NCBI RefSeq assembly: GCF_003751785.1
Contig: NZ_RKIE01000003.1
Span: 372,001-436,000, forward strand
Reading direction: 5' to 3'
Length of the DNA: 64,000 bases
Origin: Frigoribacterium sp. PhB160
GTDB taxonomy: Bacteria > Actinomycetota > Actinomycetes > Actinomycetales > Microbacteriaceae
Under the pieces are notes generated by a model. The model ran no database searches, had not been told where the DNA came from, and saw only the letters and a list, made by a program, of their open reading frames with translations. Positions 1-38,795 of this stretch are shown piece by piece. Position 1 is the stretch's first letter; every line of letters begins with the position of its first letter. The translations under genes were made by a program, and so were the position numbers.

Positions 1-1
1 G

Positions 2-466
2 ACCAACCACGAAGCGCTCCTTGATCCAGCAGTTTGGCGTCGGTTCGAGGTGCAGGTGCCGATCCCCGTACCTGCCGTTCCCGAACGAATTGCCATTGTC
101 GCCGCAGCTTTGGGCGACACCCCCGGCATCGAGGCGGAAGCGAAGCTCATCGTCTGGATGACCGATGGCTTTTCAGGGGCGGAGGTGACCACGGTGTGCA
201 AGAAATGGCGGAAGCGCCAAATTGTGGACGGTCTAGCCCGCACCGACGCAGTGCAATTGATCATGCAGGTCACGGCTTCCACTGCAGCGCGTTTTGGTGC
301 AGCGGATCGTCCTGAGTGGCCGAACCGTGAAGCTCTCATCGCCGATCTAGTCCTGAGTGACACTCTTCACTTCTCCCAGGGTGAACTGGCACATTTGTTC
401 GGCATCAGCACCAAGACCGTAAGCCGCCTAGTGAATAAAATTCAGAGCGAGGATGGCAATGCCTAA
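2..466 (+). CDS. AAA+ ATPase, C-terminal part (cut by window edge)
   Basis: The reading frame is open from base 2 and carries the end of an AAA+ ATPase. The first residues, TNHEALLDPAVWRRF, are the second region of homology of AAA proteins with the arginine finger (WRRF). The AAA lid follows, and the last 30 residues (FSQGELAHLFGISTKTVSRL) form a helix-turn-helix-like segment. Walker A and B lie outside the window. The stop overlaps the start region of the subtilase gene downstream, so the two are translated together. AAA ATPase plus subtilase gene pairs are a recurrent two-gene arrangement; the ATPase presumably feeds or gates the protease. A role in defence is inference from the neighbourhood. 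Base composition is lower in GC than the core genes of this window. Confidence 0.85.
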   Translation, partial: TNHEALLDPAVWRRFEVQVPIPVPAVPERIAIVAAALGDTPGIEAEAKLIVWMTDGFSGAEVTTVCKKWRKRQIVDGLARTDAVQLIMQVTASTAARFGAADRPEWPNREALIADLVLSDTLHFSQGELAHLFGISTKTVSRLVNKIQSEDGNA

Positions 467-2987
467 CCAGCCAGTCCAGATCGTCACAAACCCGCAGCGG
501 CTGACGCAACGGCGCGACAAACCGTCCCCAAATTCCGCCGGTACCGATTTTTTCGCAGGCAATGACGCTGGATTTGCTCGCCATCAGGTGCGGTTGACGA
601 CGCAACTCGCCAGCATCATTAGCGCACTAGAAGTGCCTACGTACATGAATGATTACAATGGCTTGGGTTTTGTAATCGTCAAGATGAGTTCCCAAGCCAT
701 CGCTAAAACACACCGGCCGCAGATACGCCTGTTCAAGAAGAATGCAGTTCCTCATGTGGCCACGCGGGGCATTGGAGAACCAATCTTCGCCTGTACCCCG
801 GAGACGCTTCGTGGAGTCCTTGAGCGGCTCCGTCAAGCTGAACTCAGCGTCGGTACCAAAACGCTAAAAACTGGAGAGATCGTCGCGAACCCGACGAGAG
901 CCCGGTGCGAAGCGTCTGCAATCGCGAGCATTGAGCTGTGGTCTGTCGCAGACAAGCGTGCCTTCGATGCTGAGGATGGGGTTGCGTGGCTGAGTCGGTC
1001 CGGGTCGGGTGGCAGATACCACGTGGAGCTCTTCCCATTTGGTGGGGTGTCAGCACCGGCATCTCTGACACGTGCTGGCCAGAGCGCAGCGCGAGCGCTC
1101 GAGAACGACCTCACCAACGTCTCCGTTGACATAAATGCGCAAGCGGCTCGCGGGGTGGGCGGCCCGCTTGCTCTGTCTGTGGCTGTGCTTGAACCAGGCG
1201 TCCCCGGGCGTACTGAACTCGGAATCACACTCGAGGAAGTCGGAACCGCGCTTCGAAGCCGCGGGAACCCAGCCCCCAACGTCGACGTCGACGAACATGC
1301 GCGTGTTCTCAACGCTCTCGAACGCAACCCGCTCGTACGCTCCATCACGCTCCCGCCGCTCCCCTCAGCCACGCAGGGAGAGGCTGCAGCCACCGGCGCC
1401 CTGGCCTTGCCCGTCCTCCCGGGCCCCGACGAACAGACCCTGCCGATCATCGGTGTACTGGATGGGGGCGTTGGGTCCGTGCTCGACCCTTGGGTTGTCG
1501 ACCGCTGGACGGTGATAAGTCCATCGGACACGGACGCGGAGCATGGCACGTTCATCAGTGGCCTCCTGATCGCGGCAGGACCGCTTAACCCGTCGCTTTT
1601 GGATTCAGCACGTCCGGCCTGCCGGATACTGGACCTTAAGGTGTTACCAGCGGACCCTGGAGGCACTGGTGTCAACTTTGGCCGCTACTACCCCGGTGGA
1701 GCCGCGGAGTTTCTCGACGAAATTGAAGACGCTGTCCGAGATGCCAGGAAACGGTATGACGTCCGAATATTTAACTTAAGCGTAAATTTTGACGGGCCCG
1801 GCGACGACGCGCGTTACGGCTTCGCGGCGCAGCGTTTGGACGAGATAGCGCGACAGCACGACGTCATATTTGTGATATCCGGCGGCAACCTTGTGCCAAG
1901 TGATCAACGTGCCGAGTGGGGTACGAATCCTGACCGAAACCTTGCTGCGCTGGTTCGGGAGACAAGGACGACGGTCTCGGAACCCGCTGAGAGTTTGTTT
2001 AACCTGTCAGTAAGTGCGTTGAACCCACCTGGTATTGGTGGACAGGTGCCCTATGCCCTCACTAGGTACAGTCGAAGAGGGCCGGGGTTGCGCGGAGCTA
2101 CAAAACCAGATCTTGCGCATATCGGCGGTAGCGGCACGTACGACAGCGTCGCTGGTTACGGCCTGGTCTCAGTCGATGAGGCCGGAGCGGAAGTCACGGA
2201 CTGCGGGACCAGCTTCGCGGCGCCCCTTGTCGCGCGCGAGCTCGCTGACCTCGACGTCGCCATTCAGGGGGATGTGCCCCGTGAGGTGCTCCTGGCTCTC
2301 CTGATCCACGAGGCGAGAATGCCGAAGCAACTTCAGAAGGGGTCAATCGGTGCAGTCGCAACCCAGCTTGCAGGTTTCGGCGTGCCCAGCCAGACGCACC
2401 ACACTCTGGAGCGTCCCGACTCGGAAATCGTAATGGTCTTTAACAGCACTGTGCTGCCACGCGAGGAGCACAGTTTGGACTTCTCCTGGCCGGCTGCCCT
2501 AACCACAAACGGTAAGTGCCGCGGGTATGCCCGGCTGACTTTGGTTGCGCGGCCGGTTCTTGCCTACGAGCACGGGGACGAACGTATTCGCGTCAACATC
2601 GACGCTAAGCTCATGCAGCAAAATGAGGATGGCGGGTTCAACAATGTGCTGAAGCCTGTCCACAACCCCAACGCCATGGCCAACCCAAAGACCGAACGCG
2701 AACGGCTGCGAGAGAATCACAAGTGGCAGGTCGTGAAGAGGTTCGAGACGGCCAACATGCGTGGACGTGGCAGCAGCTCGACGTGGCGGTTCTTTGTTGA
2801 GTACCTGACCCGCGCGGAAGAGCCGCTCCCGATTAAGGGCGTCGAGTTCGCCGCGGTCCTCACGATTTCCGACCCCAAGGGCGTCGCACCGGTTTTTCAG
2901 CAGATGCGACAACAACTAAACGCACGAGGGGTGCAGACCACTGACATTCGGGTCGGAATTCGCAACCGAGTCAGCACGCGAATCTGA
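459..2987 (+). CDS. Subtilase family (S8) serine peptidase
   Basis: A cytoplasmic subtilase of about 840 residues with no signal peptide. Numbered from the ATG at 453, the triad is Asp337 (VLDGG), His364 (EHGTFISG) and Ser587 (GTSFAAP), with the oxyanion region ahead of the serine; all motifs are intact, so an active protease is expected. About 330 residues precede the Asp, and about 250 residues after the Ser form a separate C-terminal domain. An ATG at 453 is possible, but GAGCGAGG lies 6 bases before the ATG at 459 and abuts the one at 453, so 459 is preferred. The gene overlaps the upstream AAA+ ATPase gene, which supports a two-protein machine. The substrate is unknown. The subtilase call is secure; the defence role is inferred. 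Confidence 0.88.
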   Translation: MPNQPVQIVTNPQRLTQRRDKPSPNSAGTDFFAGNDAGFARHQVRLTTQLASIISALEVPTYMNDYNGLGFVIVKMSSQAIAKTHRPQIRLFKKNAVPHVATRGIGEPIFACTPETLRGVLERLRQAELSVGTKTLKTGEIVANPTRARCEASAIASIELWSVADKRAFDAEDGVAWLSRSGSGGRYHVELFPFGGVSAPASLTRAGQSAARALENDLTNVSVDINAQAARGVGGPLALSVAVLEPGVPGRTELGITLEEVGTALRSRGNPAPNVDVDEHARVLNALERNPLVRSITLPPLPSATQGEAAATGALALPVLPGPDEQTLPIIGVLDGGVGSVLDPWVVDRWTVISPSDTDAEHGTFISGLLIAAGPLNPSLLDSARPACRILDLKVLPADPGGTGVNFGRYYPGGAAEFLDEIEDAVRDARKRYDVRIFNLSVNFDGPGDDARYGFAAQRLDEIARQHDVIFVISGGNLVPSDQRAEWGTNPDRNLAALVRETRTTVSEPAESLFNLSVSALNPPGIGGQVPYALTRYSRRGPGLRGATKPDLAHIGGSGTYDSVAGYGLVSVDEAGAEVTDCGTSFAAPLVARELADLDVAIQGDVPREVLLALLIHEARMPKQLQKGSIGAVATQLAGFGVPSQTHHTLERPDSEIVMVFNSTVLPREEHSLDFSWPAALTTNGKCRGYARLTLVARPVLAYEHGDERIRVNIDAKLMQQNEDGGFNNVLKPVHNPNAMANPKTERERLRENHKWQVVKRFETANMRGRGSSSTWRFFVEYLTRAEEPLPIKGVEFAAVLTISDPKGVAPVFQQMRQQLNARGVQTTDIRVGIRNRVSTRI

Positions 2988-3051: not shown

Positions 3052-3216
3052 TTACTTCTTCTTGGACTGATCCTTCTCGGGGGAAGGCGCCGTCTTCTTG
3101 GCCTGAGCGCTCGCGCTGCTCCGCGTCACATACTTGCCGGTCGTCGGGTTTACTCGGACGCCGCTGACGCGGTATGCCCCGTTCCCTAGGCTCTGAAGTG
3201 AGTAGCCGTTTGCCAT
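3052..3216 (-). CDS. 54-residue basic hypothetical protein
   Basis: This small gene starts at an ATG at 3216, six bases after a good GGAG ribosome-binding site (GCAGGAGACAGAC). It lies 25 bases downstream of the SIR2-like gene on the same strand, so it is probably the third gene of the CHAT-SIR2 operon. The first half (MANGYSLQSLGNGAYRVSGV and on to NPTTGKYV) looks like a compact beta fold; the tail is lysine- and serine-rich and ends in KKK, suggesting nucleic-acid or membrane contact. I do not recognise a family. It converges on the subtilase gene and leaves a 64-base gap with no clear terminator. Confidence 0.6.
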   Translation of the reverse strand: MANGYSLQSLGNGAYRVSGVRVNPTTGKYVTRSSASAQAKKTAPSPEKDQSKKK

Positions 3217-3241: not shown

Positions 3242-4642
3242 CTACGTCCTGGACACGGATCCGGTAGATGCAACGAGCCGTTCGCCCCAGTCGACCGCGA
3301 TGTCAAGTGTCGTGTCCATCCACATTGCCGTCGACTGGAAGTAGGTCTCGGCGCTTCCAGGCAAGCCAACGCTTAGGACGGCTGACGCGATTCCCGGAAG
3401 GCCGTCGAGTTCCACGCGAATTGGGGTGGCAAAGACGGTACCCCAGCGACTCGTCGTTCCCTCTTGCAGGTCCTGAAACACCGTCGCTTCGGCGCCGAGC
3501 GCACGGCCCGCGATCCACTGGCTGTCGTGACCGCTAGGCACGTGGCGCACATCGTCGATGGAGCGGAAGCAGCGATCTTGAGCTGCGTAACGAGCAACGT
3601 TGCCTTGCCCGTCTGCGATCCATAGCGTTGCGTTCAGGCGGTCGACGTTAAACGCCGTGCAGAGCGAGGTGGCGTCCGAAAGCAGCTGATCTGAGTACGC
3701 CTGCTGCAGGTCCTGAAACGAGTCGACATGCGCCTGCCACAGAGTGGCAGCTCGCTCCTGCGGTGCGCGGTAGCCGGGTGCATGTAGATGCCGCAACTCT
3801 CGAATGATCTGCGCGGCATCCGAGTGGTCTTCGAGGATCACGGGAGTAAGACCCGCTGCGCTCCACTGATCAGCCAACGCCTCCTTGATCTGGTCGAACT
3901 CCGGCCTTGTGACGTGAAACGATTCCCTGGCCAGAAGTACCAACGCGTTCGATGCGTCGGGAGCGGCCAGGGCCACGTGTAGCCAACGCCGAACGTCGGG
4001 GTCGCGGTAGGACGTTCCTGCGATCACGATGGCCCCTTTCTTGGCGCACGCGATAAGCAGGCGTTGCTGCCACGAATCCGGGTCTCCTAGCAGCTCGTTA
4101 AAGTCGGAAAGGGTAAGCACGACATCTTGGCTCTCGCGCACTGATGCAACGCCGTGGAGGTGATGCACCGGAATCGTTCCAGCAGGCCGTTGGTCGTCGA
4201 TTCGGGGCTCAGCAGTGACCGCATCGCCAGCTTCGTCGATTGCATCCTCGATAAGCGTGTCGAAATTCAGGGTGATAACCGTGGACTCTCCCAAATCTCC
4301 GGCCAATGCGTGGCTTGCTGCCGCAATGTGCAGAGGTGACGGGGACAAGTCGTTGAGATTCGAATAGAGCGCTGCTCGAACGTATTGGTCCCAACGCTTC
4401 CCGAGCCGCCGGCGTGCCGCTTCCGCTACGAGCAAAGGGTCTTGTCGATTAACCAACAACCACGCGGCGTCCTGATCGGGAACTGACCCAGAGGCACGAA
4501 GGAGCCGGACTGCTAGCTCCTCCCACCCGGGCAAGCCTGACGCTGCTGATGCGCCAGCGCCGAGCAATAGCGTGACGTGTTGGTCACTTCCTGAGTCACG
4601 GAAGGAGCCCATCGTTGCAGCGGTCAAGTCGGGCGCGCTCAC
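3242..4642 (-). CDS. SIR2-like NAD-binding protein with C-terminal GAF-like domain
   Basis: The N-terminal half is a SIR2-like Rossmann domain: GAGAS at residues 28-32, the NFD pair (Asn126, Asp128) and HLHG at 161-164 with the presumed catalytic His163. Proteins of this class in defence systems usually hydrolyse NAD+ rather than deacetylate proteins; no zinc-binding Cys pairs are seen, which favours that. Residues of roughly 325-455 have the pattern of a GAF sensor domain (LWIADGQGNVARYAAQ, then VFATPIRVELDGLPGIASAV). The gene lies 80 bases after a CHAT protease gene on the same strand. The start is a GTG at 4642 inside a palindrome; an ATG at 4612 is the alternative. The reading as an NADase effector is inference. 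Confidence 0.75.
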   Translation of the reverse strand: MSAPDLTAATMGSFRDSGSDQHVTLLLGAGASAASGLPGWEELAVRLLRASGSVPDQDAAWLLVNRQDPLLVAEAARRRLGKRWDQYVRAALYSNLNDLSPSPLHIAAASHALAGDLGESTVITLNFDTLIEDAIDEAGDAVTAEPRIDDQRPAGTIPVHHLHGVASVRESQDVVLTLSDFNELLGDPDSWQQRLLIACAKKGAIVIAGTSYRDPDVRRWLHVALAAPDASNALVLLARESFHVTRPEFDQIKEALADQWSAAGLTPVILEDHSDAAQIIRELRHLHAPGYRAPQERAATLWQAHVDSFQDLQQAYSDQLLSDATSLCTAFNVDRLNATLWIADGQGNVARYAAQDRCFRSIDDVRHVPSGHDSQWIAGRALGAEATVFQDLQEGTTSRWGTVFATPIRVELDGLPGIASAVLSVGLPGSAETYFQSTAMWMDTTLDIAVDWGERLVASTGSVSRT

Positions 4643-4722: not shown

Positions 4723-5817
4723 TTAAGCGTCCGGGGGTAGCTCGGGCAGTACGAGGCGGGTCTCGTAAGGGTTGTAGCCCTCAGCGGCATGCAGCTGTGG
4801 AAGATCATGATCAGGCAGCCCCATCATCTCTAGAGCTGTCTTTGCGAGATCGTGCGAGGAGCCGATGGACTGTCCGTCCGCGATGGACGCGTAGAAGCGT
4901 GCCGCGTAGTTGATGGCGTCAGAATCCCCTATTGAGTCGGAATGACCAATAGCGAAGGCCGCGATGCTTTCTGTCAGACGGTAAGCCTGTGCAGCGGTCC
5001 TGCACGCATTGAGGACGACGAGAAGCGGAGTTTCGTCGACAGCTTGTAGAGCACGCCCCAGTAGCCGGCCGGACATCGTATGACCGTCATTGTGGGCGTC
5101 GACATCTTCTTCGAAGACAATGACGTCCTCGTTGCCGTGGCCGGAGAAGTGGACGACGTGAGGGGTGCCCTGCGTGAGACCGTTCAGAAGGTCTGCGCCC
5201 GTCGCAGCAGGCCTGACGTCGAGTCGAACCTGGTCGCGACCAGACGCGAACCGAACTGCATCCTGAATTTGCTTCTGCTCGCGTCCGACGCGCAGGTCAT
5301 CTCGGCCTGACGAGGTGAGGATAAGGATGCGGAGGCGCTCTTTCTTCGGCTGTCGAAGGTCGGCTATTGCCCTCTCGTGCACGTCGAAGCGCATCGCCAT
5401 CTCGTCGCGCAGACGGCCCGTCTCGGCTCTGACTGTCGTCACTTGCTGAGCTCGTTGCCTTTCTAGGGCAGTGTCGGTCTGCTGACGCTTTCGTTCCGAC
5501 GCCCTTAGTTCCGAGGCTTCGGCGGCTGACATCTGCCTTTGAAGAGCTACTTCTTCGGCTAGGCACTTGCTCGCCTTGGTCTGCCAAGCGGCGGCGTCCT
5601 TGCCGGCGGTGTTGGCGTCCTGCTCGTACCTGTCTGCGTCCCGCGATCGGGACTTGCGCGTCGACTCGCTGCTTGTCTTGGATGCAGCAGTCCGAGCCTT
5701 TGTCGCATCCGCCCGCTTGGCGTTCTCTTTCGTTCGTGCCGCCGAGGCCTTCTTCTCCGCATCGGCCTTCTGCGCGCGCTTCCGTTCGAGTTGAGATCGA
5801 ATCGTCGAGCTGCTCAT
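4723..5817 (-). CDS. CHAT-domain protease with N-terminal coiled coil
   Basis: Residues 1-155 are almost entirely charged and alanine-rich, a long coiled coil (KADAEKKASAARTKENAKR and similar). Residues 160-364 form a CHAT (caspase HetF associated with TPRs) domain: RLRILILTSS opens the first strand, VVHFSGHG carries the catalytic His227 and VVLNACRT the catalytic Cys272. Bacterial CHAT proteases act in defence and cell-suicide pathways, often switched on by a partner. Here the following genes encode a SIR2-like protein and a small basic protein, probably one transcript. The start codon sits a few bases after a TAGCCT box, which could be the -10 element of a leaderless transcript. Its activator and target are unknown. 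Confidence 0.82.
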   Translation of the reverse strand: MSSSTIRSQLERKRAQKADAEKKASAARTKENAKRADATKARTAASKTSSESTRKSRSRDADRYEQDANTAGKDAAAWQTKASKCLAEEVALQRQMSAAEASELRASERKRQQTDTALERQRAQQVTTVRAETGRLRDEMAMRFDVHERAIADLRQPKKERLRILILTSSGRDDLRVGREQKQIQDAVRFASGRDQVRLDVRPAATGADLLNGLTQGTPHVVHFSGHGNEDVIVFEEDVDAHNDGHTMSGRLLGRALQAVDETPLLVVLNACRTAAQAYRLTESIAAFAIGHSDSIGDSDAINYAARFYASIADGQSIGSSHDLAKTALEMMGLPDHDLPQLHAAEGYNPYETRLVLPELPPDA

Positions 5818-6171: not shown

Positions 6172-6190
6172 TGCAAACAGCCCGCCAAAG
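6172..6190 (+). repeat. 19-base direct repeat, left copy
   Basis: TGCAAACAGCCCGCCAAAG occurs here and again at 24078-24096 in the same orientation; the 7 bases before it match in 5 of 7 positions (GGGGATC against GGAGATG). A strong terminator follows in both places. This copy is continued by GGTTGTTTGC, which can pair back on GCAAACAGCC. The two copies bracket 17.9 kb and could be attachment or recombination sites. No integrase gene lies between them. Confidence 0.55.
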
Positions 6191-6237
6191 GGTTGTTTGC
6201 GGATTCAACAGAATCTGTTTGCGAGTCCCAAGCCAAG

Positions 6238-6267
6238 AAAAAACCCCCGAGAAATCGGGGGTTTTTT
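6238..6267. terminator. Bidirectional rho-independent terminator
   Basis: An A-run, CCCCCGA, a GAAA loop, TCGGGGG and six T residues form a textbook terminator that works on both strands. No complete gene ends just before it on the plus strand, so it is probably a leftover of an older arrangement or ends a short RNA. Confidence 0.85.
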
Positions 6268-6268
6268 C

Positions 6269-6451
6269 GTGCGCAGCTCAGTCTTGAGCCGGTTAGCGGT
6301 TGGTAGCCGAAGTATCAGGTCAGTGGCAGAGGCTGCGGGCGTTACTCACACGACTCTGCTGAGTGTCTTGGCGGGCCAGGTCTGGCCAGACCTCGAAACG
6401 ATCGCGAAGCTCGAGCGTGGCCTCGGAGTCGCCCTCTGGCCGCGCGACTAG
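6269..6451 (+). pseudogene. Helix-turn-helix (XRE-like) gene remnant
   Basis: The last 40 residues (VAEAAGVTHTTLLSVLAG, then WPDLETIAKLERGLGVALWP) match the C-terminal part of short XRE-type helix-turn-helix regulators, including the typical LWP ending. The usual N-terminal helix is missing, and the frame runs straight out of the terminator at 6238-6267. A GTG at 6269 could start a 60-residue protein, but no ribosome-binding site precedes it. It is most likely a 5'-truncated gene at an insertion or deletion boundary. Confidence 0.5.
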
Positions 6452-6478
6452 CGATCGCCCCTGAGTGTCCCTTCGTGG

Positions 6479-7024
6479 TCACGACGGCTCCCCGTCTTCC
6501 GTTGACGCTAGGTTTGCTGGTAGCGACGAAAGATCCTCTGGAACGTCCACCATGGCCACTTCGCTGGCCCGCGGAATTCGCGCGAAGCGTCCCTGGTCGG
6601 GACTGGGCAGGTCGGCAAGCCAGGCGGCTCCCCGCTCCACGAGTCGGGTTCGAAGCGACGCTGCAGTGATGCCGTCTCCACGATCCGTGACCGGAGTTGC
6701 CTCGAGTTGAAACTCGCCGAGCCGCAGGCACGCGAGTACGTAGGCAACGTAGGTCTCCCTCGCATGGGTCACGAGCTCGTTCGGAGCGTTCTCGCTGCTT
6801 GTCTCGCGCAGCGCCTCCGCTGGTGACGCCCAGCTGACGGACGCTTCGTGCTCCCCAGTGGTAGCCGAGAGTCCAAAGAGGGGACCCTTCGCGTGGGCGC
6901 TCCAACTGACTTACATACTTGCGCCGTCATTCAGCAAATCGCTGAGATCCAGCACCCGCCCCTGGACCGTGATGATGCCGAAAGCTCTTCGGTGCCCGAG
7001 GCCCGCCGCGTCATTCGTGCTCAT
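6479..7024 (-). pseudogene. Hypothetical gene interrupted by an in-frame TAA
   Basis: Read from the ATG at 7024, one frame runs 182 codons to the stop at 6479 with a single interruption: a TAA at 6911-6913 after codon 37 (ending LNDGASM). The continuation (SWSAHAKGPLFGL, TYVAYVLACLRLGEFQL, LRTRLVERGAAWLADLP) reads like an ordinary soluble protein but has no start codon of its own before a GTG at 6772. The simplest view is a nonsense-mutated gene; a 97-residue protein from the GTG is the alternative. The family is not recognised. Confidence 0.45.
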
Positions 7025-7090
7025 GGTCATTAGTATTACCACGCCCTGGGGCTTGATGCCAGGTTTGTACCCAATGAAGGCGGTGGCGGA

Positions 7091-7522
7091 GTGAACGAGA
7101 GCGAGCTTGTCGAGGGGCAGCATCAGATTGTTGGGTTGGCAGCGAGCCCGAAGGCGGTGGCTGTGTGGGGGGCAGACGACTCTCGGGTTGCTTCCGGCTG
7201 GCGACTGAGCGCTGTGGACCTCGGCATGAAAGACGGCAGGCCCTTCGGAGCCCTTGGCTTTGACGCGCTCGACAGCTCCCGCCACGTACGGGTCGCCGTC
7301 CGATGGGATCACGTGTACGACCAGTTGCAGTGTTTTGTCACAGACCGGGCGTTTATCGGCCCGCAGCGAGAAGCACTCGAGCGCGATGCCCGTCACCGTG
7401 TCGGAGCGCTGATGGCTGCTTATGCTCAAGTCGGACTGTCGATCGCTGCAGGAGTCGTCGCGGAGGGCGCCATCAAGGCTGCCGCAAATCTCATTCCAAC
7501 TGGTCCGAATCGGCCCTCATGA
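7091..7522 (+). CDS. Hypothetical protein, 143 residues
   Basis: This frame has a GTG start preceded by GGCGGAG and codon use typical of the less GC-rich genes here. The protein has a polar N-terminal region with several Trp and Asp residues (VAVWGADDSRVASGW) and a hydrophobic helix near the end (MAAYAQVGLSIAAGVVAEG) that could associate with the membrane. I recognise no domain. The opposite strand is also open over part of this stretch but reads as a Cys- and His-scattered shadow. It lies between debris and the DUF3800 gene and has no obvious operon partner. Confidence 0.45.
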   Translation: MNESELVEGQHQIVGLAASPKAVAVWGADDSRVASGWRLSAVDLGMKDGRPFGALGFDALDSSRHVRVAVRWDHVYDQLQCFVTDRAFIGPQREALERDARHRVGALMAAYAQVGLSIAAGVVAEGAIKAAANLIPTGPNRPS

Positions 7523-7684: not shown

Positions 7685-8482
7685 TCAGAGCCCCGGGGAG
7701 GGCCACCAGGGGTAGTCCTGAAGTGTTGCCTTTCGAGTCATGGCCTTAAAGCCGTAGCCGGTGCTCGCCCCCGCAGATGACCGGCGAATTTGCGGACGAA
7801 CATGCAGCAAGTGGTGGGGCTCGTAGCCGCCAAAGCGGTCGACGTTCATAGCGGCGCTCAGCATGCCGGCATACTGATCTGCCGCCTGCATGCCGGAGTT
7901 CGTTGACATCGCCAAAAACTTCGGCGTGCCCTCAAGCAAGGACCAGCGTGCCCATCCCTCGCCTCGGTCCTTCTTGATCCGGAAGTAGTCCAACGTCTTG
8001 TCATGATCGAACCCCCGGACGTGACCAAACGAGACTCGTACGTCTCTCATGCCCCCTGGCCAGTACTGCGCCGTGAGGAGCAATCTTTCCATCATCAATC
8101 CAGCGGTGTAGTTGTAGAAGGTCGATTGATCGCCCCGCATCCCAGCAGTCTCGGGAATGGCCGCCTTCTCGAAAATGACGTAGTTGATCGTCACTCCTGG
8201 CACCTTCGCGAGTTCTCGCGTGACGAACTGGCGGCGGTCAAACGTCTTGACGTGCTCTTTCCAGTGCAATGGCTTGCCCTTACCGACCCCGAACCGCCCT
8301 TTCACCTCGATGACCGCTCGGGACAAGGCCGAATAGTGCTCTTCGGCAACAACGACCCCGGCCATGCTGAAGAAGCGCGAGGCTTTCGGGCCCGTCCCGC
8401 GATCTCCCGTTTCGTCCACGAATGCAAGCACCTTCTTGCGCTGAGTTGTGGGCGCCGTGCGCGGCACAAATCTGTGAGTCAT
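7685..8482 (-). CDS. DUF3800 domain protein
   Basis: The protein of 265 residues has the DUF3800 pattern: an N-terminal strand ending in FVDETGDRG with acidic residues, LHWKEH in the middle and QAADQYAGML near the end. The family is thought to adopt an RNase H-like fold and is frequent in mobile and defence regions, but its biochemical role is not established. The ATG at 8482 is preceded by a G-rich ribosome-binding site (GGGGGGAG) that is part of an upstream hairpin. It stands alone, transcribed away from the thiamine operon, with lower GC than that operon. Confidence 0.8.
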   Translation of the reverse strand: MTHRFVPRTAPTTQRKKVLAFVDETGDRGTGPKASRFFSMAGVVVAEEHYSALSRAVIEVKGRFGVGKGKPLHWKEHVKTFDRRQFVTRELAKVPGVTINYVIFEKAAIPETAGMRGDQSTFYNYTAGLMMERLLLTAQYWPGGMRDVRVSFGHVRGFDHDKTLDYFRIKKDRGEGWARWSLLEGTPKFLAMSTNSGMQAADQYAGMLSAAMNVDRFGGYEPHHLLHVRPQIRRSSAGASTGYGFKAMTRKATLQDYPWWPSPGL

Positions 8483-22495: not shown

Positions 22496-23989
22496 TCAGT
22501 ACGGTCTTTGCAGTCTGGTTGCTGTGCGACGTTGCGCCTCTGCGTTGAGCCCGAGGAGAGCCATGAGATACGCAGCGACCGTCGCGTCGGTCGCTTGCTC
22601 GAGTTCGAGAAGGCGGTCACCGAGGCCGACGGCTTCGTGGGCCAGTCCGTTGCGGGTCTTTGTTATATCGCTCAGCCACTGGTCGCTGTCAGACATGATC
22701 GCACCGACAGTGCTCGCATCCACCTGTTCGAGGATGCTGCGCATCCTCTGCCGGAAGGAGGGGCTGGTTGGGTTGTTGCGCAGCTTCCGACGAACCCAAA
22801 TGCGTTCCTCGTCACTAGTCATCGCGTCGAGAGCGCGCCTCAGCCGGCTCTCAAAGACCGTCGCGTCGATGTCGCGTTCGGGTGGCGTAATGTCCAGCGA
22901 TCGGTGTGTTGCTTCGGCGGCAATGGCGGTCAGCAACGCTCGGGACTCGGTGTAGCCGGGACGGTCGTAGTAGTTGCCAAAGTAAGCGGACGTCCCTCCG
23001 CGCGCGGTTCGTTGCAAGGGAACCCATTTCGAGACGAGTTCTTCAAAGGGCCTGTCGTCGCAAGTGAACCGCCAATCGGAGGGCGCGGGTGCGAGAGGGA
23101 TCGCTTGGTGGATGTGCCGGACATAGGTTGGGATGTCGTTGCTCGCCTGCGGCCGCGAGTCAGCAGACGCTGGCGCCCGAGCAGGAATGACGGACATGGA
23201 GACAACACCGCATGCGGTGCCGGCGGCCAGGGTGAGCAAGTCCATGAACGCTTTTACGTGTTCGTCGAGAGTTTCGATGGTGCAGGGTGACGGGGCGTCG
23301 ATGCGCAGGCGGGTGCTGGTCAGTCCGACCACCGATGCGTCGCCTCGTTGTAGGTCGAAGTCGAACCCACCGTGTCTCTTGACAGCGGTGTACGTCCAGT
23401 CCTGGACGACGACGCTCCGATCCGGAACGGCAGCAAACGCTGCCGACCCTCGTCGGATTTCAGCAGATTGGCGAATGCTCTCGGTGCCGAGCCAGGTGAC
23501 TAAGTTCTCGAGCTGTACCCAAGCTCCCTGCCATACGGCGGGTTCATCCGGGTCGATGTGAGTCCCTATGAACGCCCGATTGGCGCCGATTAAGTGGACG
23601 TCAGGTCCATTGCTGAAGCCGAAGCCGTAGGTGGTGGACTTACGAGTCCACGCCTCCTGAAGCGTGATGTCTTGATTGTTCGCGCGTCCGTGGATCAGGG
23701 GCATGGGGCGCTCATCGGCGGAGACCGCCCACCCGCCTGTCTCAAGTGGTGTGCGAATGCTGAGGTCGAAGCCGCCAACTAGATCAAGAGTGATGTCGCC
23801 TTGGTCCGAGATGGTGAGGTTACCGGGCTGCATTCTCCCTGTCGGCCGGGAGCCACCACCTACCTCGAAGGATCTGCATGTCCCAATCGTGACGTATCCG
23901 ACGAGGGGCGGAATTACCGCTGGTTCGTCATGGTGACCGGTTCGACTCCGTCGCTCCACCTCGGAACGGACCTTTGACAAGAGCAACAC
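22496..23989 (-). CDS. ApeA-like HEPN-domain protein
   Basis: The protein of about 497 residues has the layout of ApeA: an N-terminal beta-rich domain (GYVTIGTCRSFEVGG, GRMQPGNLTISDQGDITLDL) and a C-terminal helical HEPN domain. The HEPN active motif RxxxxH is present as RNGLAH near residue 455. ApeA is a known single-gene phage-defence protein whose HEPN domain is needed for activity, presumably as an RNase. The annotated GTG at 23989 has a poor ribosome-binding site, so the true start could be somewhat downstream. A hairpin (23994-24015) lies directly before it. Target RNA and trigger are unknown. Confidence 0.7.
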   Translation of the reverse strand: MLLLSKVRSEVERRSRTGHHDEPAVIPPLVGYVTIGTCRSFEVGGGSRPTGRMQPGNLTISDQGDITLDLVGGFDLSIRTPLETGGWAVSADERPMPLIHGRANNQDITLQEAWTRKSTTYGFGFSNGPDVHLIGANRAFIGTHIDPDEPAVWQGAWVQLENLVTWLGTESIRQSAEIRRGSAAFAAVPDRSVVVQDWTYTAVKRHGGFDFDLQRGDASVVGLTSTRLRIDAPSPCTIETLDEHVKAFMDLLTLAAGTACGVVSMSVIPARAPASADSRPQASNDIPTYVRHIHQAIPLAPAPSDWRFTCDDRPFEELVSKWVPLQRTARGGTSAYFGNYYDRPGYTESRALLTAIAAEATHRSLDITPPERDIDATVFESRLRRALDAMTSDEERIWVRRKLRNNPTSPSFRQRMRSILEQVDASTVGAIMSDSDQWLSDITKTRNGLAHEAVGLGDRLLELEQATDATVAAYLMALLGLNAEAQRRTATRLQRPY

Positions 23990-24122: not shown

Positions 24123-24329
24123 CTCATTCCCTCATCGGCTCGTGGTGCGCTTGTGGTGCATCCTGCAAGAAGGACCGCTTGACCGACGCGTCGCGCGGTG
24201 GCAGCTGGGTGTCTCGCCTCGGCTTGAGATGCTCTCGGTTCTGAGCTCAGACGCTCTTGTCTCGTGCCGGTCGAGTGGGGTCCTGAGTGCTTAGTCGAGT
24301 GAGTGGCACCACGTTGGCCGGCTAGAGAC

Positions 24330-24845
24330 CTAGTAGGGGTCGACGCGGCGACGTCGCTCGATGAGAACGGTGTCACGCCATACCCCGGCATACGGGCCCG
24401 TGTCGGAACGCGCGATCCGTTCCCGCGTCCCGACCCGGCGGAACCCCGCCCGGGCGTGGAGGGCCAAACTCGCCCCGTTCTCGGGGAAGATCGACGACTG
24501 AACGGTCCAGATGCCCGTGGCATCGGCTGAGGCGAGGAACGAACTCAGCAGTTCACGCCCGATGCCTCGGCCCTGGGCCGAGGCGGCGATGTAGACGGAG
24601 TGTTCGACGACGCCGGCATAGGCCGGCCTGGTCGACGTCGCGGACGCCGCCACCCAGCCGAGGACCGAGCCCGTGGTGTCGTCGACGGCGACGAATCGGT
24701 GCGCGGCGAGCTTGCCGGCATCGAACGCCTCCCAGGTCGGGGTGTGGGTTTCGAAGGTGGCGTTACCGGTGTTGATGCCTTCTTGGTAGATCTGCTCGAC
24801 GTCGGGCCAGTCGTCCGGGGTCATGGCCCGGACGGTGACGCTCAT
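24330..24845 (-). CDS. arsN: GNAT N-acetyltransferase, ArsN1/phosphinothricin acetyltransferase type
   Basis: The protein of 171 residues has the GNAT fold of the pat/bar group: VRAMTPDDWPDVEQIYQEGI, NATFETHTPTWEAF, EHSVYIAASAQGRGIGREL (the acetyl-CoA loop) and the closing GVWRDTVLIERR. Members placed in ars operons are called ArsN1 and acetylate the amino group of arsinothricin; others act on phosphinothricin. It is the last gene of the arsenic operon and overlaps the preceding flavoprotein gene by four bases. The ars context favours ArsN1; the exact substrate is inferred. Confidence 0.85.
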   Translation of the reverse strand: MSVTVRAMTPDDWPDVEQIYQEGINTGNATFETHTPTWEAFDAGKLAAHRFVAVDDTTGSVLGWVAASATSTRPAYAGVVEHSVYIAASAQGRGIGRELLSSFLASADATGIWTVQSSIFPENGASLALHARAGFRRVGTRERIARSDTGPYAGVWRDTVLIERRRRVDPY

Positions 24846-26185
24846 GAGCAGCACCCACCTGCTGCCGGCCCGTCGTCGGCGCACCCCGAGGCGTCCGGGA
24901 GGTTCGTCGAGCAGACACCCGTGTCGGGGAGTTCGAGCTGCACGATCCGGGCCGCTTCATGGTTGCCGGCGAGTTCGTCCGCGATGGAGCGGACCTGCTC
25001 GTAGCCGGTGAGGAGCAGGAACGTCGGGGCACGGCCGTAGGACTTCATGCCGGCGATGTAGAAGTTCGGCTCCGGGTGCCCGAGCTCCGCGACCCCGTGC
25101 GGGTAGACCGTGCCGCAGGAGTGCAGGTTCGGGTCGATCAGCGGGGCGAGCTGCCGGGGCGCTTCGACGATCTCGTCCAGGGACACCCGGACCTCACGGA
25201 GCATGTCGAGGTCGGGGCGGAAGCCGGTCGCGTTCACCACCACGTCCGCAGCGACCGTCAGGGGCTCGCCGCGCCGACGGCCGACGAGTTGCACGCCGTC
25301 GTCGGTCTTGATCACGTCGTCGACCTCGAACCGGTCGACGAGGTCGATCGCGCCCGCGCGGACGAGGTCGCGGACGGCGCTGCCGAGGTCCCCGCGGCCT
25401 TCGAGCTGGTCGGCTGCGGACCCGTAGACCAGGGCGGGGTTGCTGCTGCGGATCGCCCACGTGATCGTCGTCCCGGGCGCTTCCTTGGCGAGGGTGGCGA
25501 GCTTGATGAGGGTGTTCGCGGCCGAGTGGCCGGCGCCGACGACGACCGTGTGCCGGCCGGCGAACCGTTCCCGGTCCTGGCCGAGGACGTCGGGCAGGGC
25601 GTGGCTGATACTGCCCGCGACGGCGTCGCCGTGGGAGAGGCCGACCCCGGAGGAGGTGAGGGTGTTGGGGGTCGTGTAGGTGCCGGAGGTGTCGATGACG
25701 GCGCGGGCGAGTTCGTCGCGCACCTCGCCGTCGTGGTCGAGGCGCAGAAGGAACGGCGTCTCGGCCCGCCCGGTGGAGCGGGTGCGGTCCATGCCCTGCC
25801 GGGACACTGCCGTGACCCGGTGCCCGTACCGGATGCGGCCCGACAGCTCAGGGGTCGCGGCGAGGGGTTCGAGGTAGTCGCGAACGAAGTCGGCACCGTA
25901 GGGGAGCTTCTTCGCTGCCGGGGCCTCCCAGTCGGTGGTGTCGAGGAGGCGCGCTGCGGCCGGGTCGACGAGGTGCTCCCACGGGGTGAACAGGCGCGTG
26001 TGCCCCCACGCACGGACCGCCGTCGCGGCACTCGGGCCAGCTTCGTAGATCACGACGTCGACGCCGCGTTCGAGGAGCTGCGCGGCAGCCGCGAGGCCCA
26101 CAGGGCCGGCGCCGATGACGGCGACGGGGAGCCCGGCAAGGGCCGGGGCGGCGGTGCGGGGCGGGACAGAGAGGGTGAGACTCAT
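24842..26185 (-). CDS. arsO: ArsO-type FAD/NAD(P)-binding flavoprotein
   Basis: Two dinucleotide-binding motifs, VIGAGPVGLAAAAQLL near residue 25 for FAD and VVVGAGHSAANTL near 210 for NADPH, define a flavin monooxygenase-like protein of 447 residues. Homologues in ars operons are called ArsO, and their reaction is not settled. The C-terminus carries four cysteines (GVCSTN, GCAD, GCCS) in a flexible tail, which could bind trivalent arsenic; this is inference. The ATG at 26185 begins MSLTLSVPP; codons before it in frame are a shadow of the arsC tail. It lies between arsC and arsN. Confidence 0.8.
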   Translation of the reverse strand: MSLTLSVPPRTAAPALAGLPVAVIGAGPVGLAAAAQLLERGVDVVIYEAGPSAATAVRAWGHTRLFTPWEHLVDPAAARLLDTTDWEAPAAKKLPYGADFVRDYLEPLAATPELSGRIRYGHRVTAVSRQGMDRTRSTGRAETPFLLRLDHDGEVRDELARAVIDTSGTYTTPNTLTSSGVGLSHGDAVAGSISHALPDVLGQDRERFAGRHTVVVGAGHSAANTLIKLATLAKEAPGTTITWAIRSSNPALVYGSAADQLEGRGDLGSAVRDLVRAGAIDLVDRFEVDDVIKTDDGVQLVGRRRGEPLTVAADVVVNATGFRPDLDMLREVRVSLDEIVEAPRQLAPLIDPNLHSCGTVYPHGVAELGHPEPNFYIAGMKSYGRAPTFLLLTGYEQVRSIADELAGNHEAARIVQLELPDTGVCSTNLPDASGCADDGPAAGGCCS

Positions 26186-26226
26186 GCGGGGAGGCCCTTC
26201 GATTCGATGCCGAGTTCGGTCAGGAG

Positions 26227-26853
26227 CTATTCGACGAGCTTCCGGACGTCGTCGCGGATGAGGCGCACCTTCTCGAGGGGGAACCCGGCGGGGTCGGTGA
26301 GGTGCCAGTCGCGGTAGGTCTTGCTGGGGTAGATCGGGCACGCGTCGCCGCAGCCCATCGTGATGACGACGTCCGCTGCCTGCACGACGTCGTCGGTCAG
26401 CGGCTTCGGGAACGCCTCGTCAAGGTCCAGGCCCAGCTCCCGCATCGCTTCCGCGACGACGGGGTGGAGATCTCGGGCGGGCAGGGACTCGGCTGAGCGG
26501 ACGTGGACGGCACCGCCGGGGAGGACGTTGGTGAACACGGCCGCCATCTGGGAGCGGCCGGCGTTCTGCTCGCAGACGAACAGCACCTCCGGCACCGTCC
26601 GCTCGATCGCCCCGGTGGCCTGCCCGAGGGCGGTCAGCCGGTCGACGGCGAACCGGGTCGCGTTGGTGGTCAGGTGCGCACGGACCTGCGCTGTGCGAAG
26701 GAGCGCCGTGTAGGACTCGAGCACGTACCGCTCGATCGTCTCGGGCCCGAAGATGCCCTTGAACCGAGTGGCGAGGTCGCCCGCGGCACGCTTGAGTGCG
26801 TCCTCGGAGAAGGCAAGGCCCGGCAGGCCGCGCCTCGTGGTCAGGTCCGTCAT
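26227..26853 (-). CDS. arsC: Arsenate reductase with N-terminal helical extension
   Basis: Residues of about 80-208 are a low-molecular-weight phosphatase-like ArsC with the P-loop CEQNAGRSQM and the second cysteine region TMGCGDACPIYP. Residues 10-75 are a three-helix bundle (LKRAAGDLATRFKGIFGPET, LTTNATRFAVDRLTAL) typical of actinobacterial arsenate-mycothiol transferase fusions. It reduces arsenate to arsenite for export. The ATG at 26853 is preceded by GCGAGGAGACG. The gene lies between a shorter arsC and arsO. Two differing arsenate reductases in one operon may use different thiol partners. Confidence 0.88.
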   Translation of the reverse strand: MTDLTTRRGLPGLAFSEDALKRAAGDLATRFKGIFGPETIERYVLESYTALLRTAQVRAHLTTNATRFAVDRLTALGQATGAIERTVPEVLFVCEQNAGRSQMAAVFTNVLPGGAVHVRSAESLPARDLHPVVAEAMRELGLDLDEAFPKPLTDDVVQAADVVITMGCGDACPIYPSKTYRDWHLTDPAGFPLEKVRLIRDDVRKLVE

Positions 26854-26876
26854 CGTCGTCTCCTCGCAGCTCAGGG

Positions 26877-27287
26877 TCAGGCGGTCGCGGGTGCGATCTC
26901 GGCCAGCAGGGCCTGGATGCGGCCCTTGATGTCGTCGCGGATGGGGCGGACGTCCTCGATGCCGCGGCCGGCGGGGTCGGTCAGCTCCCAGTCCTCGTAG
27001 CGCTTGCCGGGGAAGATCGGGCACGCGTCGCCGCAGCCCATGGTGATCACGACGTCGCTGTCCCGGACGGCCTCCGTGGTGAGGACCTTGGGCTGGTTCC
27101 CGGCGATGTCGATGCCCTCTTCGGCCATGGCCTGGATCGCGATCGGGTTGATCTGGTCTTTCGGTTCGCTGCCGGCGGAGAGGACGTCGACGCGGTCGCC
27201 AGCGAGGGCCTGCATGTAGCCGGCGGCCATCTGGGAACGGCCGGCGTTGTGGACGCAGACGAACAGGACGGTGGGCTTGGTGCTCAT
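26877..27287 (-). CDS. arsC: Arsenate reductase, short form
   Basis: The protein of 136 residues has the P-loop CVHNAGRSQMAAGYM, the TMGCGDACPIFPGK region and the acid-containing LTDPAG motif, as in thioredoxin- or mycothiol-coupled ArsC. It is the second gene of the operon, 22 bases after acr3, and has a good ribosome-binding site (GAAGGAACCCGTC before the ATG). Its C-terminal half is closely similar to the next gene, suggesting an old duplication with later gain of the helical extension. Confidence 0.92.
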   Translation of the reverse strand: MSTKPTVLFVCVHNAGRSQMAAGYMQALAGDRVDVLSAGSEPKDQINPIAIQAMAEEGIDIAGNQPKVLTTEAVRDSDVVITMGCGDACPIFPGKRYEDWELTDPAGRGIEDVRPIRDDIKGRIQALLAEIAPATA

Positions 27288-27309
27288 GACGGGTTCCTTC
27301 GGGTAAGGG

Positions 27310-28395
27310 TCAGACCCGTTCAGCGACGCGCGCTGCCGGGGCGGGGGACGGGAACAGGCGTGGCCGCAGCCACAGGGACAGGTACACCAGCGCCACGAGC
27401 GCCGGGACCTCGATCAGGGGGCCGACGATGCCGGCGAGGGCCTGGCCTGAAGTCGCCCCGAACGTGCCGACCGCGACCGCGATCGCCAGCTCGAAGTTGT
27501 TCCCCGCGGCCGTGAACGCCAGCGTCGCCGTCCGCTCGTAAGCGAGGCCGATCGCCCGCCCGGTGAAGAACGCGACGAGGAACGTGACGGCGAAGTACAG
27601 CAGCAGGGGCAGGGCGATGCGGACGACATCGAGGGGCCGGTCAACGACCTGCTGGCCTTGCAGGGCGAACAGCATCACGATCGTGAACAGCAGCCCGTAG
27701 AGGGCGAAGGGGCCGATCTTCGGCAGGAACCGTGTCTCGTACCAGGTGCGCCCCTTGGTCGCTTCCCCGATGCGGCGAGATAGGTACCCGGCGAGGAGGG
27801 GGATGCCGAGGAACACCAGGACGCTGAGGGTGATCGACCACATGCTGAACGACGCGCTCGTTGTGGGGAGTCCGAGCCAGGCGGGGAGGACCTGGAGGTA
27901 GAACCAGCCGAGGCCGGCGAACGCGACGACCTGGAACACCGAGTTCAGGGCCACGAGGAACGCAGCAGCTCCTCGGTCGCCACAGGCGAGGTCGTTCCAG
28001 ATCAGCACCATGGCGATGCACCGGGCGAGCCCCACGATGATCAGCCCCGTGCGGTACTCCGGTAGATCGGGCAGGAACACCCACGCGAGGGCGAACATCA
28101 GCGCCGGTCCGACGACCCAGTTCATCGCTAGCGACGACACCAGGAGGCGCCGGTCACCGGAAACGGCGCGTGCGTCGGAGTACCGCACCTTCGCCAGCAC
28201 CGGGTACATCATCACCAGCAACCCGACCGCGATCGGGACGCTCACCTGCCCCACCTGGAACGAGTGCAGCAGCTCACCGAACGCCGGGACGAACACCGCC
28301 AGCAGCAGCCCCGCAGCCATGGCGGCGAGAATCCACACGGGGAGGAAGCGGTCAGCGGTCCCGAGCCGGGCAGGTGCGGTGGTGGTGGTCGTCAT
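27310..28395 (-). CDS. acr3: Arsenite efflux permease Acr3
   Basis: An integral membrane protein of 361 residues with ten predicted helices of the bile acid/Na+ symporter superfamily. The conserved Acr3 Cys is in LARCIAMVLIWNDLACGD. It expels arsenite made by the two ArsC proteins. The ATG at 28395 is the first gene of the operon and faces arsR across 85 bases. The MTTTTTAP start is chosen over upstream codons because those would run through the shared operator. Confidence 0.92.
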   Translation of the reverse strand: MTTTTTAPARLGTADRFLPVWILAAMAAGLLLAVFVPAFGELLHSFQVGQVSVPIAVGLLVMMYPVLAKVRYSDARAVSGDRRLLVSSLAMNWVVGPALMFALAWVFLPDLPEYRTGLIIVGLARCIAMVLIWNDLACGDRGAAAFLVALNSVFQVVAFAGLGWFYLQVLPAWLGLPTTSASFSMWSITLSVLVFLGIPLLAGYLSRRIGEATKGRTWYETRFLPKIGPFALYGLLFTIVMLFALQGQQVVDRPLDVVRIALPLLLYFAVTFLVAFFTGRAIGLAYERTATLAFTAAGNNFELAIAVAVGTFGATSGQALAGIVGPLIEVPALVALVYLSLWLRPRLFPSPAPAARVAERV

Positions 28396-28417
28396 GCAGC
28401 TCCGTAGATCGATGAGT

Positions 28418-28450
28418 GTCGATGCGTTGAGCCTGCCCCAACCCATCGAC
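28418..28450. promoter_or_regulatory. Probable ArsR operator between acr3 and arsR
   Basis: GTCGATGCGTTG (28418-28429) and CAACCCATCGAC (28439-28450) are inverted repeats matching at 11 of 12 positions with a nine-base centre. They lie between the two divergent genes, where ArsR is expected to repress both directions until arsenite binds. Confidence 0.65.
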
Positions 28451-28480
28451 GACTGTCAATCTGTGTGGAAGAGTGTTCAC

Positions 28481-28831
28481 ATGCCCGTTGCCGAACTCCT
28501 GCCCCTCACGGACGTGACCGCGTGCTGCGCACCGCTGGCCCGGGAGGCGATGGACGCCGAGAACGCCGAGAAGCTGGCCCGCAGCCTGAAAGCCATTGCG
28601 GACCCGGCCCGGCTCCGGCTTATCTCGATGGTCGCCGCGCACGAGGGCGCCGAGGCGTGCGTCTGCGACCTCACCGAACCTCTCGGGCTCAGCCAGCCGA
28701 CCGTGTCGCACCACTTGAAGGTCCTCGTCGATGCCGGCATTCTTACCCGCGACAAGCGCGGCATCTGGGCGTACTACGCCCTCGTCCCCGGGGCTCTCGA
28801 CTCCCTCGGAAAGCTCCTCGTCACCGCATAG
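28481..28831 (+). CDS. arsR: ArsR-type arsenite-responsive repressor
   Basis: A winged helix-turn-helix of 116 residues: ARLRLISMVAAHEGAEACVC, then LGLSQPTVSHHLKVL as recognition region and GIWAYYALVPGAL as wing. The cysteine in ACVCDL plus the early TACCAPL pair give the thiols for arsenite, as in actinobacterial ArsR proteins with a different Cys arrangement from the plasmid type. It is divergent from acr3 and shares the operator between them. Confidence 0.92.
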   Translation: MPVAELLPLTDVTACCAPLAREAMDAENAEKLARSLKAIADPARLRLISMVAAHEGAEACVCDLTEPLGLSQPTVSHHLKVLVDAGILTRDKRGIWAYYALVPGALDSLGKLLVTA

Positions 28832-37455: not shown

Positions 37456-38646
37456 TCAGGCAGCGCGAAGGGCTGTGATCCGTTCCCGGATGCGGGTGTC
37501 GAGGTCGCCGAACTCGTCGAGGACGTCCATCGCGGCGTAGGCGCGGCCGCGGACTCGTTCGGTGACCGCCTGGACCACGCCGTGTTCCTCCAGCGACTGG
37601 ACGCCGCGGTAGACGCTGCGCTCGGGGAGGCCGGTCGCCTCGGCGAGCTGCTCCACGGTGAAGACCGGGAGGGCGAGGAGAGCGGGGAGGATCAGGTCGG
37701 CGGCGCTGCCTGCTCGGGGCGCGGCCTGCTCACGCCAGGCGTCTTCGTACCGGGCGAAGGTGCGGGCGGTGCCCCGCGCCTCCCGGGCTGCGGTCTCGAC
37801 GCAGAGGGCGAGGTCGGTGATGATCGGCACGACGTCTCCGGACCGATAGGCCGTGAGCAGGGCGAAGTAGTGCGGCGTGTCCGCCGCCAGGGCGCTGGCC
37901 ACCGGGAGCACGGTGTGTGGTGTCACCCCGCGACGGCGGAGGATCGCGCCGATGAGGGCACGGCCGATGCGGCCGTTGCCGTCGGTGAAGGGGTGGATGC
38001 TCTCGAACTGCGCGTGGGCGATCGCGGCCTGCGTGATCGGCTCGACGTCGTCGCGGTTCGCGAACGCGATGAGGTCGTCGAGGAGAGCCGGGACGTCCTC
38101 CGGAGGCGGGGGGACGTAGAGCGCGTTGCGGGGGGCGTACTGGGAGCCGCCGATCCAGTTCTGCACGTCTCGCACGGTGCCGGCGTAGCGACTCTCAGTG
38201 GGGTCGTCCCGCGTCAGTGCCTCGTGCGCGGCGAGGATCTCGTCGAGCGTGATCGCCTCGCTCGAGGCGGCGATGAGCCTCGTGATGGCGGCGCCGGCGG
38301 CGACCATCGACATGGCCGACTCGTTCTCCTTCAGGCCGCCGATCGCGCGGGCGAACGCGACGGGCGTCGCCTCGACGTGCTCGATGCGGCTCGAGGCGAC
38401 CGACTCCATGCGGATGAGGAACCCGGCGAGCGGGCTGAGCACGCCGCCTGCCACTCGCTCGAGGTCGCCGGCCTCCCACCGTGCTCGGGCCAGGTCACGG
38501 TCGGGCCCGGGCGGGGGAGTGAGCATGGCGATCGTGGGCGGCAGGGACACCTCGACCTCGGCGAGCATGCGGTCTTCTCGGGTACCTCGTCGGCCGGAGC
38601 TCGCCCACGGAACCGTCGTCGTGGTGTGGGCTGGCCAGATGGGCAT
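37456..38646 (-). CDS. Fic-domain protein (probable AMPylator, class II)
   Basis: The Fic core HPFTDGNGRIGR at 218-229 has the catalytic His218 and the ATP-binding glycines. An N-terminal inhibitory helix motif reads SSRIEH at 85-90, close to the usual [S/T]xxxE[G/N] with His instead of Gly or Asn. A C-terminal winged helix (TVEQLAEATGLPERSVYRGV) follows. Fic proteins of this type transfer AMP to proteins or remove it. The ATG at 38646 (MPIWPAHTT) is chosen over one at 38700 that would read through an AT-rich promoter-like stretch. It is divergent from the NERD gene. Confidence 0.85.
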   Translation of the reverse strand: MPIWPAHTTTTVPWASSGRRGTREDRMLAEVEVSLPPTIAMLTPPPGPDRDLARARWEAGDLERVAGGVLSPLAGFLIRMESVASSRIEHVEATPVAFARAIGGLKENESAMSMVAAGAAITRLIAASSEAITLDEILAAHEALTRDDPTESRYAGTVRDVQNWIGGSQYAPRNALYVPPPPEDVPALLDDLIAFANRDDVEPITQAAIAHAQFESIHPFTDGNGRIGRALIGAILRRRGVTPHTVLPVASALAADTPHYFALLTAYRSGDVVPIITDLALCVETAAREARGTARTFARYEDAWREQAAPRAGSAADLILPALLALPVFTVEQLAEATGLPERSVYRGVQSLEEHGVVQAVTERVRGRAYAAMDVLDEFGDLDTRIRERITALRAA

Positions 38647-38795
38647 CGGGCCTCCCTCAGTGTCATTGACTCGCCAGATAATGACACTTATGACGCGCAT
38701 GTGTCAATTGCGCTGACGTTGTTGCCACTTCCTGGCCGTCATCTCGCCTCGTTGTGGGGCTCGATGACGTTTCGCCCGTCTGGCTGGATGGAGGC

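Follow-up and report, generated by a model that had tools for sequence, protein, structure and literature searches.

The window, that is, the whole 64,000-nucleotide stretch of Frigoribacterium sp. PhB160 DNA that was analyzed, begins inside an AAA+ ATPase gene that is followed on the same strand by a subtilase gene. This ATPase-subtilase pair is an already named system, IetAS, which Gao and colleagues reportedly found to be anti-phage in 2020. The features of the locus are collected in Table 1, in which L002 is a stretch of the same genome (contig C3, 357001-377000) holding the whole ietA gene; a window position equals the L002 position minus 15000.

Table 1. Features of the ietA-ietS locus and its immediate surroundings (window positions unless L002 is given)
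Feature	Position	Strand	Size	Remarks
ietA, 3' part	1..466	+	C-terminal 154 codons	Codes for the AAA+ lid and a helix-turn-helix-like end; open frame 2-466, entering at the window edge
ietA, whole	L002:14279-15466		395 aa	Begins 722 bp before window base 1
ietS, subtilase (S8)	453..2987	+	844 aa as longest ORF	PDLC02199; Peptidase_S8
Basic small ORF	3052..3216	-	54 aa	Downstream of the SIR2-like gene; outside IetAS
SIR2_2-domain protein	3242..4642	-	466 aa	Convergent neighbor; SIR2_2 7.5e-18
CHAT-domain protein	4723..5817	-	364 aa	CHAT 1.1e-5; caspase-like motifs SGHG and NAC
Right attachment-like repeat	6182..6265	+		Copy of the tRNA-Ser(CGA) 3' end and following DNA, L002:5219-5304

As longest ORFs, ietA and ietS share 14 nt, and with ATG 459 as the start of ietS the overlap is 8 nt, which is common in the relatives. 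The first in-frame ATG lies at 453, the methionine common to the relatives is M3, and we consider ATG 459 the likely start because of this shared residue and the context gcgaggATGgcaATG, with its spacing from GAGG. Thus, the coordinates and the few-base overlap given in an earlier note on this DNA were correct. Scans of the DNA returned 0 promoter-like signals (0.8 expected from shuffles) and 4 terminator-like signals (4.7 expected), and no signal peptide was seen by eye in IetS.

We further examined the catalytic residues using alignments of 29 IetS proteins (28 relatives and the window protein) and 25 IetA proteins, all intact-looking, drawn from the 58 loci of the genome scan described below; in the latter, the copy of locus L012 (99.7% identical) represents the IetA of PhB160. 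The full-length ATPase carries intact Walker A (GPPGTGKT) and Walker B (LILDEFDA) motifs, which the earlier note had proposed to look for left of the window and whose absence would have spoken against its reading. The key residues of these motifs, sensor 1 N243, and the arginine finger pair R254/R255 were invariant in 25 of 25 IetA rows, which had been chosen as intact. The complete catalytic triad claimed for IetS is formed by D337, H364, and S587; together with the oxyanion residue N479, it was invariant in all 29 rows, likewise chosen as intact. Pfam matched AAA (3.3e-25) in IetA, with helix-turn-helix models below the cut-off at its C-terminal end, and Peptidase_S8 (1.3e-17) in IetS.

Both proteins matched PADLOC models over practically their entire length: IetS matched PDLC02199 at profile positions 1-824 of 826 (E 7.1e-247), and IetA matched PDLC02195 at positions 1-392 of 395 (E 3.7e-134). 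Matches to the NCBIfam models IteA (NF042959; E 3.3e-82) and IteS (NF042956; E 1.1e-78) reached 276.6 and 265.4 bits, under the equivalog cut-offs of 510 and 900 bits, respectively. Judged by these profile matches, the pair belongs to the IetAS family in PADLOC's sense, outside NCBI's stricter IteA/IteS equivalogs, and its behavior may therefore differ from that of NCBI's named members. It shares with the IetAS/IteAS anti-phage system the ATPase-then-subtilase order with overlap, the AAA+ and S8 catalytic residues, and full-length PADLOC models, whereas its IetS fits the longer model PDLC02199 (826 positions, against 747 to 749 for NF042956 and PDLC02197), is only 25% identical to Dongshaea IteS, and comes from an actinobacterial host.

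A genome scan returned 58 IetS loci; that of Frigoribacterium sp. VKM Ac-2836 was 99% identical, and the other 57 were 29 to 42% identical over the best segment. Of these more distant loci, 56 were from Pseudomonadota (mostly Alphaproteobacteria) and one was from Chitinophaga, although the scan patterns were built from the window protein and four alphaproteobacterial proteins, which biases this host range toward Alphaproteobacteria. An IetA homologue was found beside IetS in 57 of the 58 loci, in 55 of them upstream on the same strand; in L067, 189 bases separate the start of the IetS match from the end of the contig. Viral contigs scanned with IetS alone gave no relative. According to our own ORF caller, IetA is divergent to IetS, on the opposite strand, in two Methylobacterium loci (L063 and L064). 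Besides, the IetA and IetS distance matrices were correlated over 23 loci (r 0.976; none of 2,000 shuffles was as high), with the IetS of PhB160 paired with the L012 IetA. The constant pairing and this co-evolution of the two proteins indicate that ietA and ietS are a real two-gene unit. Together with the recurrent short gene overlap and the full-length family matches, they make it extremely improbable that an ordinary subtilase merely happens to lie beside an unrelated ATPase, a reading for which we found no point in favor. The earlier note had spoken of a live two-gene system; the two-gene part stands, and "live" is to be read as intactness and low pN/pS. Some relatives look degraded in sequence, as a Bradyrhizobium plasmid copy (L009) is without the catalytic His in an alignment of seven and an Aureimonas copy (L007) has two in-frame stops.

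On the right, ietS converges on the minus-strand SIR2-like and CHAT genes, in accord with the CHAT operon described earlier, and these two genes are a unit separate from IetAS. The 54-aa ORF lying between was matched, among the 79 loci searched, only in the sister island of VKM Ac-2836 (L099; 96% identical), and may code for a small partner protein or for a substrate of a protease. On the other side, a 650-aa protein (L002:11492-13444, minus strand), divergent from ietA, gave weak PADLOC matches to NsnC (2.7e-8) and HEC-07 (6.5e-8) and no Pfam match.

The whole neighborhood is shared with a second species. The block from window position -4074 to 6187, comprising the 650-aa gene, ietA, ietS, the small ORF, and the SIR2-like and CHAT genes, matches L012:5473-15749 of Frigoribacterium sp. 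VKM Ac-2836 at 98.7% identity (10.3 kb). The chromosome left of the block is 78 to 90% identical to L012, in five pieces, and the DNA to its right is unrelated to L012 within the stretch compared. The IetA and IetS proteins of the two islands (L012 and L099 in VKM Ac-2836) are 99.7 and 99% identical, respectively, whereas the VKM Ac-2836 island lacks 5.5 kb that include the tRNA-proximal recombinase module. In PhB160, the island adjoins tRNA-Ser(CGA) (L002:5135-5224), and the attachment-like repeat, located where the shared block ends, matches the tRNA end and the DNA after it at 73% over 86 bp, with 20 consecutive identical bases. GC content is 60 to 62% in ietA, ietS, and the SIR2-like and CHAT genes versus 69% for the window. 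The module on the left, a hotspot at L002:5135-9818, encodes a protein of 634 aa with weak similarity to IS1182 transposases, along with two related proteins, of which one is weakly XerD-like. This module stands at the same tRNA without IetAS in 6 of 15 other congeners, with different right-hand DNA; in two of the six (L097 and L095), the CHAT gene is present (91% protein identity), and no SIR2 match was found beside it within the stretches searched. Since these congeners hold the left module beside this tRNA and lack IetAS, the pair is one exchangeable item in the cargo of a tRNA-Ser(CGA)-linked genomic island. The island of which the earlier note had spoken is thus borne out, as a mobile one with other defense-type genes. 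The sister copy provides a natural pair for showing how IetAS moves.

Between the sister islands, pN/pS was 0.08 for IetA (5 differences) and 0.14 for IetS (28 differences), which, though the changes are few, is consistent with purifying selection on the pair; the values for SIR2 and CHAT were 0.02 (15 differences) and 0.47 (12 differences), respectively. A divergent gene pair is duplicated on both sides of the defense block (L002:10033-11174 and window 6296-7446; 66% DNA identity), and in the right copy the minus-strand gene appears by eye to be split into ORFs 6479-6772 and 6911-7429. A DUF3800 protein is encoded right of the island repeat (7685-8482, minus strand), and another DUF3800 gene is found in the vicinity of the Bradyrhizobium IetAS.

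Based on phylogenetic analysis, the Frigoribacterium IetS groups with 12 Pseudomonadota rows and Chitinophaga (support 98/92), on a long branch (2.43) that the tree program flagged as unsure. Of 16 genomes from the genus, 2 (PhB160 included) contain IetS; in the order it was found in 3 of 248 genomes, the two besides PhB160 being distant, partial matches. In a PDLC02199 search of 396 genomes of the phylum, 92 matched, those listed mainly in the protease part, and this count was discarded because 3 of 14 control genomes matched too. Among the matches listed, profile positions 1-260 were covered in PhB160 only, and no other genome of the sample held a full-length relative. The tree placement and this lack of a full-length relative in the rest of the phylum sample make it likely that IetAS was acquired here by transfer from another phylum. 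PhB160 thus adds an actinobacterial IetAS that is well resolved and probably foreign in origin.

We also investigated whether defense genes accompany the relatives, a check proposed in the earlier note. Among six annotated plasmid stretches with a relative, L008 has genes for an anti-phage dGTPase and a Shedu nuclease; an abortive-infection gene is present in L009, genes for a VapC toxin and a HEPN protein in L007, and one for a SIR2 protein in L005; no defense gene was recognized by name in L006 and L010. For 20 loci on contigs over about 100 kb (sister L012 and truncated L064 set aside; own ORF caller), we compared neighbor proteins with control proteins from the same contigs at least about 40 kb away. 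At a PADLOC E of 1e-10, 72 models (25 of them in the matches listed) were matched by 117 neighbor proteins versus 7 by 118 control proteins. Related models inflate this count: when 20 neighbor proteins, hand-picked and mostly large, were scanned singly, 6 from five loci matched (28, 6, 18, 9, 5, and 1 models each) and 14 matched none, and at the same threshold the control set too holds up to 9 matching proteins. Below 1e-40, the counts were 4 of 117 neighbors versus 0 of 118 controls (about 0.06, one-sided, by hand arithmetic). These four were a DrmD-like helicase, a type III methyltransferase, a DRT UG5-nitrilase, and RtcR, a doubtful defense gene taken as the fourth protein since none of the 20 singly scanned proteins matched it. 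Thus, co-occurrence with defense genes is suggestive, although significance was not reached and we claim no enrichment.

Both proteins were modeled as single chains. The IetA model (25 sequences; pLDDT 84.2, pTM 0.72) is PAN-like (3h4m; Z 22.5, 248 residues, rmsd 2.9), and IetA is a classic-clade AAA+ ATPase with a PAN/FtsH-like core and a helix-turn-helix-like end. At the presumed place of pore loop 1, FLG is kept in 24 of the 25 relatives aligned, and LLG stands in PhB160. The predicted core and this conserved loop would suit an IetA that acts not as an antitoxin but as an activator, an ATP-driven unfoldase feeding phage or host proteins to IetS in the manner of FtsH or ClpXP with a subtilase in place of their protease. 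We regard this as rather unlikely, since IetA here has Leu where the aromatic residue of its relatives stands, and in published relatives the ATPase neutralizes protease toxicity, as far as the available text of the two reports goes (PMC8562856, PMC5006074).

The mycoplasma AAA-ATPase/subtilisin-like pair A132/T133 is described, in the accessible part of the report, as a toxin-antitoxin module whose protease is the toxin, with toxin function shown in mycoplasma (PMC8562856). It has the same partners in the same gene order as our pair, whereas its protease and ATPase are 757 and 353 aa long, against 844 and 395 aa here, and the likeness is one of description. The S026/S025 module of SGI1 is likewise presented, in the portion at hand, as a toxin-antitoxin module with a protease toxin (PMC5006074). 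In this module and in IetA/IetS of pTiC58, the available descriptions name the AAA-ATPase as antitoxin and the subtilisin-like protease as toxin; unlike ours, both are on a plasmid or integrative element of Gram-negative bacteria, and they too are likened by description and not by sequence.

The locus holds an intact IetAS, carried as cargo of the tRNA-Ser-linked island; by analogy with these systems, we consider it likely that its protease is a toxin restrained by the ATPase and freed by infection or island loss. Free IetS would be toxic and would be kept in check by IetA. Once infection or the loss of the island upsets this control, the freed IetS might cut cell proteins and bring about growth stop or death before phage release. 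Under the same control, the module would in addition serve its mobile element as an addiction device. Trigger and substrates are named in none of the accessible portions of the papers.

Addiction might, however, be the only role, the module stabilizing the island or plasmids and excluding competitors with no part in phage defense. The earliest description of IetAS is of a pTiC58 module for stability and incompatibility (Yamamoto 2009, as cited in the available text of PMC8562856 and PMC5006074), and the tRNA-linked island is in line with such a role. Without a coverage threshold, a plasmid search with the window protein alone returned 77 records, of which 43 are predicted to be conjugative and only 14 cover 80% of IetS; full-length matches were mainly from Alphaproteobacteria. 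Nevertheless, the genus counts (IetAS in 2 of 16 genomes, the recombinase module without it in 6 of 15 other congeners) indicate that the element persists without IetAS, two plasmid relatives are annotated by NCBI as "S8 family anti-phage peptidase IteS", and IetAS in Pf phages tracked with phage resistance according to the accessible part of PMC11878078. We therefore hold an addiction-only module to be unlikely and prefer a restrained protease that also acts against phage.

A review table, in the part available, lists ietAS with systems that are linked to functional proteins of phages, e.g., polymerase and single-stranded DNA-binding protein (PMC10286901). The available text of two papers states that the IetAS mechanism is "still awaiting to be described" (PMC9958689) or unknown (PMC11878078); the IetS domain layout and the IetA pore-loop residues give testable ideas for such a system. 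Our literature search, whose scope was outside preprints and most subscription papers, showed no title on the IetAS anti-phage mechanism among the matches listed.

The IetS model (29 sequences; pLDDT 79.5, pTM 0.84) predicts an N domain, a prodomain-like segment, the protease, and a beta-sandwich. Residues 328-805 align with subtilases having a C-terminal beta domain, such as SubHal (Z 23.4, 375 residues, rmsd 3.3), and KP-43 gave Z 23.2. With two other structures the alignment begins earlier: at residue 176 for uncleaved pro-subtilisin E (Z 21.3, 315 residues, rmsd 4.3), and at residue 165 for ProN-Tk-SP (Z 21.0, rmsd 6.7). These predicted folds point to a prodomain-like segment at about residues 166-306 followed by a variable linker (307-330), where mean majority identity is 0.38 versus 0.52 to 0.67 elsewhere. 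Sequence searches lent this segment no support: up to an E of 1, the I9 family was absent from the Pfam matches of the 29 IetS members, and the PDB sequence matches of the segment included no subtilase. Very tentatively, IetS might be a self-inhibited cytosolic zymogen whose prodomain (166-306) is held or pulled by IetA as an AAA+ switch, infection jamming IetA and the prodomain then being cut; we think this unlikely to be the actual arrangement. If true, IetAS would be an ATPase-gated zymogen, a control logic that the available portions of the cited papers do not describe for IetAS.

Further right, the window encodes an ApeA-type HEPN protein (22499-23989, minus strand; ApeA_NTD1 2.5e-20, HEPN_Apea 1.7e-11) and a Fic/DOC protein with a TrmB-like helix-turn-helix (37459-38700, minus strand). 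Between them, at 24329-28827, lie arsenic-type genes for an ArsR-like regulator, an SBF transporter, a phosphatase-like protein, and an FAD oxidoreductase. These are 93.5 to 94.4% identical in three congeners and stand directly after tRNA-Ser in L093, and they are a second recently moved cargo.
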